A DNA stretch of 64,000 nucleotides, taken from contig NZ_WHVL01000001.1 of assembly GCF_020622355.1 (NCBI RefSeq), positions 248,001-312,000 on the forward strand, given 5' to 3'. The notes below the pieces were generated by a model, which ran no database searches, was not told where the DNA came from, and worked only from the letters and a program-made list of their open reading frames with translations. The DNA comes from Vreelandella malpeensis. GTDB taxonomy: Bacteria > Pseudomonadota > Gammaproteobacteria > Pseudomonadales > Halomonadaceae. Below are positions 4,712 to 27,248 of the stretch, piece after piece. Each line of letters begins with the position of its first letter. Position 1 is the stretch's first letter. Position numbers and translations under genes: made by a program.

Positions 4712-5278
4712 ATGCTCATGATCGACGATCACTACCTTATCGTTCCCGGCTGGCACGGCTCGAATGTCGATCACTGGCAAAGCCACTGGCAGAGCCGGTT
4801 GGTCAACAGTTCCCGCACGCGTGTCGAAAGCTGGAGCCACCCTGAACGCAACGATTGGATAGAAGCGCTGAATCGAGCCGTGGCCGGCGCGTCAGCGCCG
4901 GTGGTTCTGGTCGCTCATAGCCTTGGCTGCATTACGGTGGCCCACTGGGCGGGCCGTTATCCGAGCCTCACCCAGAAAATCAAGGGCGCGCTGCTGGTTG
5001 CGCCCGCGGACGTGGAGCGGGGAAGCGTCAGTCAACACCTGGTAGACTTCGCGCCAATTCCCCTGGCGCCGCTGCCTTTCGCGAGCCTGGTGGTGGGGTC
5101 GACCAACGACCCGGCCGCCTCGCTCGAACGCATCCAGCAGTTCGCCAATGCCTGGACCAGCGCCCTGCACGTCATACAGGGTGCGGGACATATCAATACT
5201 CAATCAGGCCACCACCGGTGGCCTGAAGGCATGCGCCTGCTGGGCTGCTTTACGCCTTGCGAGCATCGCATCGCCTGA
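4712..5278 (+). CDS. RBBP9/YdeN-family serine hydrolase
   Basis: A 188-residue cytoplasmic alpha/beta hydrolase of the small RBBP9 type. It opens with the family hallmark YLIVPGWHGSNVDHWQSHW, has the nucleophile elbow VAHSLGC (Ser about residue 70), a conserved Asp region (SLVVGSTNDP) and the C-terminal catalytic His in GAGHINTQSG. The natural substrate of these hydrolases is mostly unknown. It lies 30 bases after ssuD in the same direction, so it may be co-transcribed, but a role in sulfonate use is only inferred. Confidence 0.85.
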   Translation: MLMIDDHYLIVPGWHGSNVDHWQSHWQSRLVNSSRTRVESWSHPERNDWIEALNRAVAGASAPVVLVAHSLGCITVAHWAGRYPSLTQKIKGALLVAPADVERGSVSQHLVDFAPIPLAPLPFASLVVGSTNDPAASLERIQQFANAWTSALHVIQGAGHINTQSGHHRWPEGMRLLGCFTPCEHRIA

Positions 5279-5313
5279 CGCCTGCGACATCCCGAATCGA
5301 GTGAAAAGGGTCG

Positions 5314-5886
5314 TCAGGCATAAGCGATACGCGGATTCGCTCGGCCACTGACCGCAGCCGGCGCTGGCAGGGCCTCGATCAGCTCATCGAGCGCGCGCTG
5401 GATGCGCGTACTGGCCTCCTCCTCCACCCGGTAAGTACTGACCGTTTCGCGTATCAGTTGGCCCGCGCTGACGTAGACACCGCTGAGCACGTTGCTCGCG
5501 CCCAGTGCGGAAAGCACCGGCTTCATGGCATAGTCGATCACGAGCAGGTGACTATCCGAGCCGCCCGTCGCCAGCGGCAGCACTACTTTGCCTTTCAGTC
5601 CCCGTTGCGGCACCAGATCGAGCAATCCCTTGAGCGCGCCGGAGAACGATGCCTGATAGACAGGCGTTGCCAGGATCACGGCATCCGCCTTGGCGATCGC
5701 CTCGCGGTAGCGCACCACCTGCGGGTCGGCTACGTCGGCGAAGAATACCGCGTTACCGTCGAATTCGTTGGCGTCGAACACGTCGGTCTGGAAGCCGCGT
5801 GCCTCGAGCAGGCCCTCGATGAAGGCGATGAGGGCGGAGGTGCGTGATACGCTGCCGGGGCTTCCGGCAATCAATACGATACTCAT
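5314..5886 (-). CDS. ssuE: NADPH-dependent FMN reductase SsuE
   Basis: A 190-residue flavodoxin-fold reductase that supplies FMNH2 to a two-component monooxygenase. The N-terminal LIAGSPGSVSRTSALI is the FMN phosphate loop of SsuE/MsuE-type proteins; DAVILATPVYQASFSGALK is the second flavin contact. The ATG at 5884-5886 replaces an upstream in-frame start that would add 49 unlikely residues. It is the last gene of the minus-strand sulfonate operon, 130 bases after the dioxygenase gene, and converges with ssuD and the hydrolase gene. Confidence 0.88.
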   Translation of the reverse strand: MSIVLIAGSPGSVSRTSALIAFIEGLLEARGFQTDVFDANEFDGNAVFFADVADPQVVRYREAIAKADAVILATPVYQASFSGALKGLLDLVPQRGLKGKVVLPLATGGSDSHLLVIDYAMKPVLSALGASNVLSGVYVSAGQLIRETVSTYRVEEEASTRIQRALDELIEALPAPAAVSGRANPRIAYA

Positions 5887-23671: not shown

Positions 23672-23923
23672 ATGGATGCTATTAGCTATACCGCCGCCCG
23701 AAGCCACTTGGCCAAGACCATGGAGCAGGTCTGCGAGGATCATTCACCTGTCATCATCACGCGTACCAAAGCGCCTTCGGTGGTCATGCTTTCGCTTGAA
23801 GATTATGAGGCGCTACAGGAAACCGCTTATCTACTCCGTTCACCCAATAACGCACGCCGTTTGATGGATGCCATGGCCGAGCTAGAACAAGGTAACGGCA
23901 AAGAGAAGGAGCTGCTTGAGTGA
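23672..23923 (+). CDS. yefM: YefM-type antitoxin
   Basis: An 83-residue Phd/YefM antitoxin. The N-terminal MDAISYTAARSHLAKTMEQV forms the DNA-binding dimer; TRTKAPSVVMLSLEDYEALQ is the family core; the C-terminal helix (MAELEQGNGKEKELLE) wraps and neutralises the toxin. It represses its own promoter together with the toxin, in line with the GTAC array upstream. The stop overlaps the toxin start (GTGA). Confidence 0.95.
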   Translation: MDAISYTAARSHLAKTMEQVCEDHSPVIITRTKAPSVVMLSLEDYEALQETAYLLRSPNNARRLMDAMAELEQGNGKEKELLE

Positions 23924-24174
23924 GGCTCACCTTTGCCGAGAATGCTTGGGAAGACTACTTGTACTGGCAGAAAACCGATAAGAAGATTCTTGGCCGCATC
24001 AACAAGCTGATCAAGGAAATTCAACGGCGGCCCTTCGAGGGAGTGGGAAAACCCGAACCGCTCAAGCATGGTTTTGCGGGCTACTGGTCTCGGCGAATCA
24101 ACGACGAGCATCGGATCGTTTATAAGGTGGCGGATGATGCGCTGCTAATTGCGCAGCTTCGGTATCATTATTGA
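23920..24174 (+). CDS. yoeB: YoeB-type mRNA interferase toxin
   Basis: An 84-residue RelE-fold ribosome-dependent RNase. It has the conserved WEDYLYWQKTDKKILGRINK start, the PFEGVGKPEPLKHGFAGYWS loop and the catalytic end RRINDEHRIVYKV...LRYHY, with the YoeB active-site Glu, Arg, His and Tyr positions present. It starts at a GTG overlapping the antitoxin stop. All key residues appear intact, so the toxin should be active. It lies 46 bases from the attC site of the neighbouring integron cassette but is oriented against the array. Confidence 0.95.
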   Translation: MRLTFAENAWEDYLYWQKTDKKILGRINKLIKEIQRRPFEGVGKPEPLKHGFAGYWSRRINDEHRIVYKVADDALLIAQLRYHY

Positions 24175-24219: not shown

Positions 24220-24291
24220 GTATAACGACGCGCTCTGCGGCAAATTTGGAGCGCAGCGCAAAATTTGTCCGGCAGCAGCGCCTAGTTATGC
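24220..24291 (-). repeat. Integron attC recombination site
   Basis: A 72-base imperfect palindrome bounded by GTATAAC (24220-24226) and GTTATGC (24285-24291), the paired core sites. Inside, GCGCTCTGC (24230-24238) pairs with 24272-24281 leaving C24276 unpaired, and GGCAAATTT (24239-24247) pairs with 24261-24270 leaving T24268 unpaired. Bulged bases on one arm are the hallmark of attC folded as a single strand. It lies 21 bases after the stop of the cassette gene. GTTATGCC is repeated exactly (minus strand) at 26083-26090, the other end of the cassette. Confidence 0.85.
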
Positions 24292-24312
24292 CAATGTCCC
24301 GCGTATTTCACT

Positions 24313-26064
24313 TTATGGTTTTCCGAATAGTAACTTTCCAATCCACCAAATTGATTGGCCAAAATTGGATATTAACTGCTCTCCTTGTCGCAAATATGAG
24401 CTGCTGTCGTCAATCCCCGCGAGCTTTAACGCATCCCCGATCTTCGAACTGGTAGGATGAGCATCACCTACTCGCATATCGTATGCCCCTGCGATTGGGC
24501 CAAATATTTTACGAGCTTTTTCAGGCCCTACTTTTTGAGCCAGCACATCCTCTAGTAGTTTATTTGAACCCAATTTTTCTTTATTTGAATGTGTTGAAAA
24601 TTTACGAAGCTCGCCCACATCTAATCTGTCAGAAAATACACGAACAAGTTCTTTTGCGAGCCGAAGAAGAGATGCCTGATCCTTGCTGGCAAAACGAGAT
24701 ATGTGCTTCAAAACTTCTGAGCGGTTAATGTCATGTGTGAAGAGCGGCACGCCGAAGGTGTCACGAAATCCGTTTTCAAGCATAGCCATTACCTCAAAGA
24801 AAAGATCCTCCACGGCATGCGTAGATGCCGGTTGAGCCTTCACTTGGGATTCCAACAACTCACTTGATACCTTCCCATCTGGAACGACATTATGTGCCGC
24901 CCAGATATGCTGCTCCCATGCAGGAAGGCGAGCAATGTCATAAGCGTAGACGGTGATTAAATCTGAAGAGTTTATCCCAAAGTGAATCGAATACCCGGAA
25001 GTTGATTTGATTCCGCCAGTTTCTGCTGTATACCACCCGAGCGAAAACCCACGTAGCTCAAGAAGCTCATTAATAATACTGGTACGAAACCAAAGCCATC
25101 TTCCAATGTCTTCACTATTTAATTCGGCAGACGGCAAACGAGTACCATCAGTTTCCACTATGAACTGCGGTAGGTTGTTATCTGCGTCCCCTCTCACACG
25201 AGTGCTAGTCCCTTGGTGATCTATCCATTCGTCCCGCCAGAACTCCCCCTCAACTCTAACACCTTTATAGCCACCTTTTTGTCCTTGGGAGCTTTCATAA
25301 TCAGTATTTTCGTTGGTTTCTGGTCCCATCACGGGCGCATCATCTTCTTCATCTACGTCAGTTCGCCAAGTGCGAAACATTGCCCAACTTCCGCCAAAAA
25401 CGCCGTTGATGTCGCGAACCAGTAGCTCATATCGACCGCCATCTCGCTCTTCTTGATGGCCTTCTATGCCTGCGTAGTCGCTAGTTTCAAGAGAAGATAC
25501 ATTTTCAACTCTTTGACGGTAGTAAGAGAGCCGTAACGCTAAGTTCCTAGCGGCCAAGTAATCAAGTAAGTATTCTCTCTTGATTTCTATGAGGCGCTGC
25601 TCACCGTTCTCGTCGAGAATCTCACGAGCGACAACCACAAAATTCTCTTCAGGCCGGACCCAATTATCCTCTTCTTTAATGAGGCGAAGGGCTGCAACAA
25701 GATCCGGGTTTAATATCCATTGCCTTCCTCCTACAACTGGTAAAGGTAACTCCAGGACTAAGTGAACGCCTATCGCTTCTTTGTCGTTATATTGATACTC
25801 ATAAATAGTCGAGTAGAAGCCATCCTCGTATGCATAAGGGGCAATCGTTCTGCTAAGCCCGATGTCCCCCCAGCTTAACTTCTCAGCTATTTCACGGTTT
25901 TCTGGTGAGAACGCAACGGACCCACATCCAAAGAACTCGTTGCTATAACCTATGTTTTCAACGTTTCCGTTCTCGTTCTCTGCAGAAGCTCGCAAAGGTA
26001 CCCAAGTTGACTTAGAAAATTTACGACGGGTCTCCTTCTTTTGAAGAATCCAATCTTGATCCAT
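24313..26064 (-). CDS. Integron cassette protein of unknown function with a HEPN-like motif
   Basis: A 583-residue soluble protein, AT-rich and unlike its surroundings in base use. No signal peptide or membrane segment is seen. The first two thirds alternate charged and aromatic strands with no family I recognise. The C-terminal 170 residues are helical (EDLFFEVMAMLENGFRDTFG, LRLAKELVRVFSDRLDVGEL) and contain R531-x4-H536 in YDMRVGDAHP, the form of the HEPN ribonuclease motif found in many defence proteins. An AGGAG precedes the ATG at 26062-26064. A phage-defence role is a hypothesis only. Confidence 0.8.
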   Translation of the reverse strand: MDQDWILQKKETRRKFSKSTWVPLRASAENENGNVENIGYSNEFFGCGSVAFSPENREIAEKLSWGDIGLSRTIAPYAYEDGFYSTIYEYQYNDKEAIGVHLVLELPLPVVGGRQWILNPDLVAALRLIKEEDNWVRPEENFVVVAREILDENGEQRLIEIKREYLLDYLAARNLALRLSYYRQRVENVSSLETSDYAGIEGHQEERDGGRYELLVRDINGVFGGSWAMFRTWRTDVDEEDDAPVMGPETNENTDYESSQGQKGGYKGVRVEGEFWRDEWIDHQGTSTRVRGDADNNLPQFIVETDGTRLPSAELNSEDIGRWLWFRTSIINELLELRGFSLGWYTAETGGIKSTSGYSIHFGINSSDLITVYAYDIARLPAWEQHIWAAHNVVPDGKVSSELLESQVKAQPASTHAVEDLFFEVMAMLENGFRDTFGVPLFTHDINRSEVLKHISRFASKDQASLLRLAKELVRVFSDRLDVGELRKFSTHSNKEKLGSNKLLEDVLAQKVGPEKARKIFGPIAGAYDMRVGDAHPTSSKIGDALKLAGIDDSSSYLRQGEQLISNFGQSIWWIGKLLFGKP

Positions 26065-26082: not shown

Positions 26083-26100
26083 GGCATAACAGTGATTATA
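26083..26100 (-). promoter_or_regulatory. attI crossover core and candidate cassette promoter Pc
   Basis: On the minus strand GTTATGCC (26090 to 26083) is the crossover core joining attI to the cassette; it matches the attC core of the same cassette. A perfect -10 (TATAAT, 26100-26095) lies 5 bases upstream. TTGAGG in the adjoining hairpin arm, 15 bases further, could serve as -35. This would transcribe the cassette gene. The promoter strength is not known. Confidence 0.6.
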
Positions 26101-26110
26101 TACCCGTCTG

Positions 26111-26152
26111 CAAAACCTCAATGAACGCGCCAGCGCGTTCATTGAGGTTTTG
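26111..26152. repeat. Perfect 20-base inverted repeat beside attI
   Basis: CAAAACCTCAATGAACGCGC (26111-26130) and its exact complement (26133-26152) are separated by two bases. It lies between the cassette crossover point and the integrase promoter. With TTTT at the arm ends it could act as a two-way terminator insulating integrase from cassette, or as a binding or folding element. It lacks the bulges and core sites of an attC. Confidence 0.9.
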
Positions 26153-26303: not shown

Positions 26304-27248
26304 ATGAAGCTAATGGATAGGGTCCGGGCTACCTTACGGGTGAAACGCTATAGTCTTCGTACTGAGAAGACGTATCGCTACTGGATTCGCTTCTTCATTC
26401 GCTTTCATGGAATACGCCACCCTGCCACGATGGCGGGTCAAGAAGTAAGGCAGTTCCTGGAGCACCTTGCCGTTGAACGGCATGTGGCAGCTGCCACCCA
26501 AAACTAGGCGCTTAATGCCATCGTATTCTTGTATCGGCATGTACTTGAACAACCACTTGGTGAGATCGGTACTTTTAGCCGAGCCAAACGCCCTCAACGT
26601 TTACCGGTGGTGCTTTCCCATCAAGAAGTGATACGTGTTTTCGAGCATCTTGCAGGCTCCATGCATCTCATCGCTTCGCTTATGTATGGCTCCGGTTTAC
26701 GTGTTTCTGAGGCCTGCCGTCTGCGTGTCAAAGACCTCGACTTTTCACGGCAAGTGATCACCGTCCGTGCTGGCAAAGGTAATAAGGATCGTACTACTCT
26801 CTTACCATCGCCTTGTATAGCGTCATTGCAATATCACGTTCACCGGGCAGAGCAGCAACTGGCCAAACGCCTTGAAAGCGGCGCGATACCGGTATCGTTA
26901 CCCCATGCGCTAGACCGGAAGTACCCCAATGCAGGAACGTCACTTGCGTGGCAGTGGCTTTTTCCTTCATCCAGGCCCTGCTTCGATACCGAGAACCGGG
27001 TAGTGCTCCACCATACTCATACTTCTGCCGTGCAAAAAGCCGTGAAAAATGCCATGCGCGCTGCATCTTTAACGCGTCCTGGGTCATGCCATTCCTTGCG
27101 TCATAGTTTCGCGACTCAGCTGCTTAGCCAAGGCACCGACATTCGCACGCTGCAAGCATTACTGGGGCATAAAAGCGTCGAAACCACACAGATTTACACG
27201 CATGTACTGGGTAATGACTTTGCAGGCGTCAAAAGCCCCCTGGGCTAA
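26304..27248 (+). pseudogene. intI: Integron integrase IntI, interrupted by one amber codon
   Basis: A tyrosine recombinase reading frame of 315 codons with a TAG at 26505-26507, where relatives have Gln (QN-stop-ALNAIVFLYRHVLE). Everything else is intact and in frame: catalytic Arg in YGSGLRVSEACRL, HxxR in CHSLRHSFATQLL, His in LLGHKSVETT and Tyr in QIYTHVLG. The extra segment HALDRKYPNAGTSLAWQWLF is the insertion that distinguishes IntI from XerC/D. One C-to-T change has thus probably silenced it recently. A rescue from an internal ATG at 26529 would lack the N-terminal DNA-binding domain. Confidence 0.9.

Follow-up and report, generated by a model that had tools for sequence, protein, structure and literature searches.

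HEPN proteins are already known from integron cassettes (PDB 3jrt), where they were proposed to be dormancy RNases according to the accessible part of PMC3710099, which also gives a position rule for the HEPN active site: an acid in helix 2, an Arg at the end of helix 3, and a His in the next loop. Defence genes are carried as attC cassettes as well (Darracq 2025, Kieffer 2025, Getz 2025), as reported in the accessible part of the review PMC12409362. Among the STAND proteins, which carry a C-terminal sensor, Avs1 to Avs4 recognize a phage protein, be it the large terminase subunit, the portal, or a different one (accessible part of PMC12931631), and the structure 8DGC is that of SeAvs3 (accessible part of PMC11291478). 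Here, we describe a gene for a 583-aa protein found in a 64-kb window, the whole stretch of DNA analyzed. The first-pass annotation had presented it as a cassette-borne candidate defence gene with a HEPN-like end and had assigned it to no recognized family. The latter statement holds in our searches, since the protein had no match in Pfam or NCBIfam at E≤1, in PADLOC at E≤10, or in PHROGs at E≤1. In the literature, searched among open-licence papers and with no family name to search by, no paper was tied to this family.

The 583-aa gene in its integron

The features of the locus are listed below.

24313 to 26064, minus strand: 583-aa HEPN-type candidate defence gene (start codon at 26064, stop codon at 24313 to 24315; ORF call and translation)
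24223 to 24292, minus strand: attC site closing the cassette (covariance model, 87.4 bits, with its own row in the training set)
26083 to 26090, minus strand: cassette start core GTTATGCC, 26 nt upstream of the ATG and complementary at 8/8 positions to the attC end
26112 to 26151, no strand assigned: perfect 19-bp inverted repeat with a 2-nt loop, in the interval that separates the integrase gene from the cassette (repeat scan)
26304 to 27248, plus strand: integron integrase gene (Pfam Phage_integrase and Phage_int_SAM_4, with the stop read as X)

The ORF call and translation reproduced the gene coordinates exactly and placed the gene on the minus strand, which the first-pass annotation had left out. 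On that strand, the order is core GTTATGCC, 18 nt, ATG, ORF, stop, and attC (GGCATAAC...GTTA), and GTTATGCC is complementary at every position to the GGCATAAC that ends the attC. The gene therefore has what we looked for in an integron cassette, namely, an attC site after the ORF, a complementary core before it, and an adjacent integrase gene. The attC covariance model, built from 11 training sites that include the one in the window and from which a very different attC could escape, detected one attC site in the 64-kb window, at 24223 to 24291 on the minus strand, with a weak mirror on the other strand, in support of the earlier view that this is the only cassette. The DNA of the site folds with a z of -1.8 on the plus strand and -2.0 on the minus strand. 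No match such as the 19-bp inverted repeat is expected by chance, and a strict promoter scan upstream of the cassette found none. The integrase gene contains an in-frame TAG at 26505 to 26507 (codon 68); excision of the cassette by its own integrase is therefore doubtful in the window strain, where the cassette may be locked in place.

A toxin-antitoxin pair had also been reported next door. The pair is real (YefM-YoeB according to Pfam and NCBIfam, at 23672 to 24174), but it adds no support to the defence reading, and we rejected it as part of the system: since it lies on the strand opposite to the 583-aa gene and no second attC was found in the window, its membership of the integron is unsupported. 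No antitoxin gene was seen inside the window cassette.

The 583-aa gene is single-copy in its own genome. Compared with its three nearest copies, it shows dN/dS (omega) values of 0.07 to 0.13, indicative of purifying selection, and the protein is therefore maintained; over all eight pairs computed, the values range from 0.07 to 0.40, with the highest for the pair L013/L015.

Predicted C-terminal HEPN domain and its conserved residues

The features of the C-terminal part are as follows.

24316 to 24825, minus strand: predicted HEPN helical domain, residues 414 to 583 (AlphaFold2 models; structure rows at Z 4.5 to 5.3, not above unrelated ones)
24628 to 24630, minus strand: codon of D479, an acid (D/E) in 61/61 members, in predicted helix 463-480
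24472 to 24474, minus strand: codon of R531, invariant in 61/61, in the last turn of predicted helix 514-533
24457 to 24459, minus strand: codon of H536, invariant in 61/61, in the loop after predicted helix 514-533

AlphaFold2 modeling of the full-length protein with 48 sequences gave a best pLDDT of 86.5 and a pTM of 0.76 (79.6 to 62.5 for the other four models), while the C-terminal part alone, with 43 sequences, reached 88.2 and a pTM of 0.84 (87.8 to 82.2 for the other four). The helical nature of the last ~170 residues, claimed at first from the sequence, is borne out by these predictions, with helices at 418-437, 463-480, 500-512/514-533, 541-548, and 557-580. The R531-x4-H536 motif is present in the translation, and D479, R531, and H536 occupy positions in the model that fit the HEPN position rule as given in the accessible part of PMC3710099.

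The C-terminal part is predicted to be a bundle of helices running up and down, in which the motif occupies the canonical HEPN position; the fold search for HEPN, with a Z of about 5, is weak by itself. In the VIA comparison of the C-terminal part, HepS (5.3), HepT (5.2), a HEPN toxin (4.9), AF0298 (4.7), and Csm6 (4.0) scored at the level of unrelated rows, which went up to 5.5 (fumarase at 5.5, a designed binder at 5.3). Foldseek returned no match for the C-terminal domain at E≤0.001. HEPN family profiles did not match the window protein or the relatives searched; among them, PF18739 (HEPN_Apea) had no match in the window protein at E≤1, in any of ten family members at E≤10, in 143 genomes, or in control genomes. 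A weak Pfam match to NNH7, a NACHT N-terminal helical domain, was seen in one of ten members (E of 0.013).

The conservation of the motif was inspected in an alignment of 61 full-length members (58 distinct proteins) that spans Pseudomonadota to Nostoc and Halobacterium. Nine of 70 loci (L022, L039, L040, L042, L043, L046, L049, L050, and L070) were left out because their protein is 480 aa or shorter. Both R531 and H536 are invariant in all 61 members, as the HEPN reading of the first-pass annotation had anticipated. H536 is the only one of 11 histidines present throughout, of the five R-x4-6-H pairs that the protein contains, R531-x4-H536 alone is kept throughout, and D/E479 is the only position within residues 414 to 583 that is acidic in every member. 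Among 14 divergent C-termini, R531 and H536 are the only invariant columns. As for the loci left out, the Arg and His are readable and kept in six (L022, L042, L046, L049, L043, and L070), and L039, L040, and L050 lack the corresponding stretch; in L022, L042, and L078, the assembly contains a broken copy. Of 14 loci outside the alignment in which the site can be read, 13 keep both residues, including four E. coli copies and L081 to L084, and the weak relative L080 has a Ser aligned in place of the Arg. In 53 of the 61 members, the Arg is followed immediately by Val or Leu and not by the polar residue that is frequent, though not universal, at this place in HEPN proteins. The HEPN reading is supported, and we deem it very likely that the C-terminal part of the protein harbors a HEPN active site.

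Resemblance of the N-terminal half to Avs3

One further feature concerns the other half of the protein.

25165 to 26064, minus strand: beta-rich N-terminal domain, residues 1 to 300, similar to the C-terminal region of Avs3 (PDB 8dgc; VIA and Foldseek)

In VIA, the N-terminal half aligned to Avs3 with a Z of 11.1 (rmsd 3.4 Å, 165 aligned residues), the next row having a Z of 4.8, and the alignment places model residues 1 to 285 on residues 1852 to 2076 of the 8dgc chain. Avs3 was also the top row in Foldseek (E of 7.3e-3, probability 1.00), but with a poor superposition (TM 0.18, rmsd 12.3 Å). The N-terminal half is thus predicted to have the fold of the Avs3 C-terminal region, a link of structure and not of sequence: the N-terminal sequence and profile found no significant sequence match in PDB, and the profile showed no relation to ten Avs2-type loci (1356 to 1478 aa, two genes occurring twice) plus two partial frames, selected with PDLC02162, 02163, and 02164, which are all Avs2. 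Neither a STAND NTPase domain nor an Avs profile was matched in the 583-aa protein by Pfam or PADLOC. A search for PF14130 returned short ORFs only, in 4 of 274 genomes. Against 398 Pseudomonadota genomes, the N-terminal profile alone had matches in six, all of them family members. Whether this half senses a phage protein is, in our judgment, evenly poised.

Distribution of the family

The family is unnamed, rare, and widely transferred, reaching E. coli, Fusobacteria, Nostoc, and haloarchaea. One search of genome contigs yielded 49 family loci, and 16 plasmid records in PLSDB carry a member, including those of a Fusobacteria bacterium, Nostoc, Rhizobium, Halobacterium, and Halorubrum. Three of 97 near genomes have the gene, its own genome counted; phylum-wide, the family profile matched 11 of 398 genomes at E≤1e-5, although in five of these the match was weak and partial. 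In E. coli, the family occurs in 21 of 5426 complete genomes, and in 20 of these the match covers at least 80% of the query. IMG/VR gave 8 loci by sequence query and 11 by family profile, and two further single-sequence queries found none. An origin as a phage gene was rejected, given no match among 50,697 phage records and none in the viral structure library at E≤0.001.

Two groups of relatives were observed at the margins of the family. L081 to L084, from other Pseudomonadota, are weak relatives of 375 to 585 aa with an (L/I)R-x4-H(A/S) version of the motif and are probably a sister family. In L070, a Treponema plasmid, a separate short ORF at 5085 to 5381 encodes the C-terminal HEPN half alone, with the Arg and His kept; the family may also exist as a split or stand-alone effector.

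Integron cassettes account for at least a quarter of the family loci. Core complementarity of at least 7/8 was found in 14 of the 60 loci with both flanks, against means of 0.8 for shuffled flanks and 4.6 for cross-paired flanks, and in 10 of these 14 the core lies at exactly -26. The heptamers GTTATGC or GTTATGT stand exactly 26 nt before the start codon in 19 of 73 loci examined; L004 and L059 encode an identical protein. The attC covariance model, run on 63 other loci, gave 21 matches at E≤0.1, some of which are training rows, and at least two attC sites in each of L003, L004, L008, L010, and L048, these five being cassette arrays. Applied separately to eight loci, the model matched the site of the window (in L001) and nothing in the other seven, which show no cassette signs. 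The records with core or attC signs are titled Vreelandella, Shewanella, Marinicella, Pseudoalteromonas, and Zobellella, together with metagenome-assembled genomes titled, as written, Desulfobulbaceae, Chlorobiaceae, Melioribacteraceae, and others.

Genomic context and defence neighbours

In E. coli, the gene is cargo of a mobilizable element (IME) in a tRNA-Asn gene, with a MobQ relaxase, pilV, and bfpA; most of the integrase-to-TraD stretch is present in 20 genomes. In the four elements viewed, it lies alone between the integrase gene and pilV, directly behind the integrase, with neither an antitoxin nor an MNT gene next to it. The slot was also viewed in nine other such elements. Thoeris occupies it in one, as ThsA (687 bits) and ThsB (230 bits), and CBASS in another, as a CD-NTase (495 bits) with S-4TM effectors; a third has a TIR protein (PDC-S66, 373 bits), and a fourth has a Cap4-nuclease protein together with a HEPN/DUF262 pair. 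Thoeris and CBASS are anti-phage systems. The other five occupants (L110, L111, L114, L115, and L116) have no recognized defence call; the scans covered ten slot proteins by PADLOC and ten by Pfam, with the L116 slot ORF in neither. Among the tRNA-Asn MobQ elements L104 to L116, the slot swaps Thoeris, CBASS, TIR, Cap4-nuclease, and unrecognized genes, and we regard those of L110, L111, L114 (606 aa), and L115 (337 aa) as candidate defence genes.

Elsewhere, PADLOC gave clear calls for eight of ten neighbour genes picked from other loci: GajA and GajB in both L034 and L036, Avs1a in L034, a candidate PDC-S54 in L041, Cas3 in L045, and a type I MTase in L015. The remaining two were in L018, with chiefly RecD-like rows, and in L028, with no PADLOC match. 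The Fusobacteria plasmid copy is embedded in a type I R-M operon, between the type I R and M genes, and R-M genes were also seen in the flanks of two other plasmid copies, those of Cupriavidus and Pseudomonas. The scan of neighbours by PADLOC and Pfam, which used 119 of 203 called ORFs, also returned integrases (6), resolvases (4), and ordinary metabolic genes. The defence context that had been assumed at the outset is hence present, in the form of type I R-M, Gabija, and Avs1a neighbours and of the slot shared with Thoeris and CBASS; that defence genes are enriched around the family is an impression from these loci.

Proposed function and alternative explanations

A role in defence is likely for the 583-aa gene, and the explanation that we prefer, and consider probable as a whole, is that of a stand-alone single-gene anti-phage sensor joined to a HEPN RNase and acting by abortive infection. 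The N-terminal half would recognize a product of the phage, or of another invader, and recognition would switch on the C-terminal HEPN ribonuclease through D/E479, R531, and H536. HEPN RNases generally act as dimers, and this one is probably dimeric too. Host RNA, phage RNA, or both would then be cleaved, so that growth would stop before phage release. More tentatively, and on balance rather doubtfully, the C-terminal region of Avs3 could be a transplantable phage-recognition module, of which the 583-aa family would be a minimal ATPase-free version, with one domain recognizing a conserved phage protein, perhaps terminase, and directly triggering the fused HEPN RNase.

Three other explanations were weighed. 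The protein might be a cassette-borne, toxin-like HEPN RNase of stress or dormancy that is activated by host stress and slows translation without sensing phage, as would suit the dormancy role proposed for the integron-cassette HEPN family (PDB 3jrt) in the accessible part of PMC3710099 and the presence of HepT toxins among the VIA structural rows. We consider this unlikely, given that in the four E. coli elements viewed the gene has neither an antitoxin nor an MNT partner beside it, that its N-terminal domain is large, conserved, and similar to Avs3, and that several copies sit beside defence genes. The same HEPN effector could instead be directed against plasmids or rival mobile elements and not against phages. 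Its carriage on plasmids (the PLSDB records), IMEs, and integrons agrees with such a target, whereas the E. coli slot-mates, which include Thoeris and CBASS genes, speak against it, and we give this explanation a small chance.

It is similarly improbable that the protein is not a HEPN RNase at all, with the helical C-terminal part being an interaction domain in which the Arg and His coincide by chance and with another activity residing in the N-terminal part. HEPN fold scores no better than those of unrelated helical proteins and the lack of a HEPN profile match speak for this explanation; the retention of D/E479, R531, and H536 in all 61 members, at the canonical places, argues against it.

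If the preferred explanation is true, the known repertoire gains a widespread defence family for which our searches of Pfam, NCBIfam, PADLOC, and PHROGs found no model. It travels between genomes as an integron cassette, as cargo of mobilizable elements, or as a plasmid gene, so that at least three kinds of mobile element spread it. The sensing end of a bacterial NLR-like protein would also be linked to an RNase with no intervening ATPase, and the function of the Avs3 C-terminal region, as well as the minimal machinery for phage-pattern recognition, would become directly testable. Should the ATPase-free reading hold, such a system would be compact enough to travel as one integron cassette and would be present from proteobacteria to haloarchaea.

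Comparison with known systems

The 583-aa family shares with HEPN RNases (HepT, HepS, Csm6, and 3jrt) a helical core of predicted up-down arrangement, in which an insert separates helices 2 and 3, the R-x4-H motif at the end of helix 3, and the acid in helix 2. It differs from them in having no HEPN profile match and usually no polar residue after the Arg and in the fusion of its HEPN-like part to a large N-terminal domain of its own. Similarly, residues 1 to 285 align to residues 1852 to 2076 of Avs3, a STAND NTPase bound to the phage terminase in PDB 8dgc, as detailed above, whereas the 583-aa protein has no match to the STAND ATPase or Cap4 nuclease and no sequence match to the PDB chain, carries the Avs3-like domain at its N-terminal end, and has a HEPN-like effector. 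At 583 aa, it is also unlike the Avs2-type ORFs of 1356 to 1478 aa. The R-M operon setting of the Fusobacteria copy recalls the ApeA/BMEI1217-type HEPN proteins, as described in the accessible part of PMC3710099, and the family may be distantly related to ApeA; unlike ApeA, neither the window protein nor nine relatives match HEPN_Apea. Finally, as a candidate defence gene carried as an attC cassette, the 583-aa gene resembles the anti-phage cassettes of Darracq 2025, Kieffer 2025, and Getz 2025, which we know through the accessible part of the review PMC12409362 only and among which this family may figure; beside these and the known integron HEPN proteins, what appears to be new here is the family itself, its sensor-like half, its reach, and the company that it keeps in the cargo slot.
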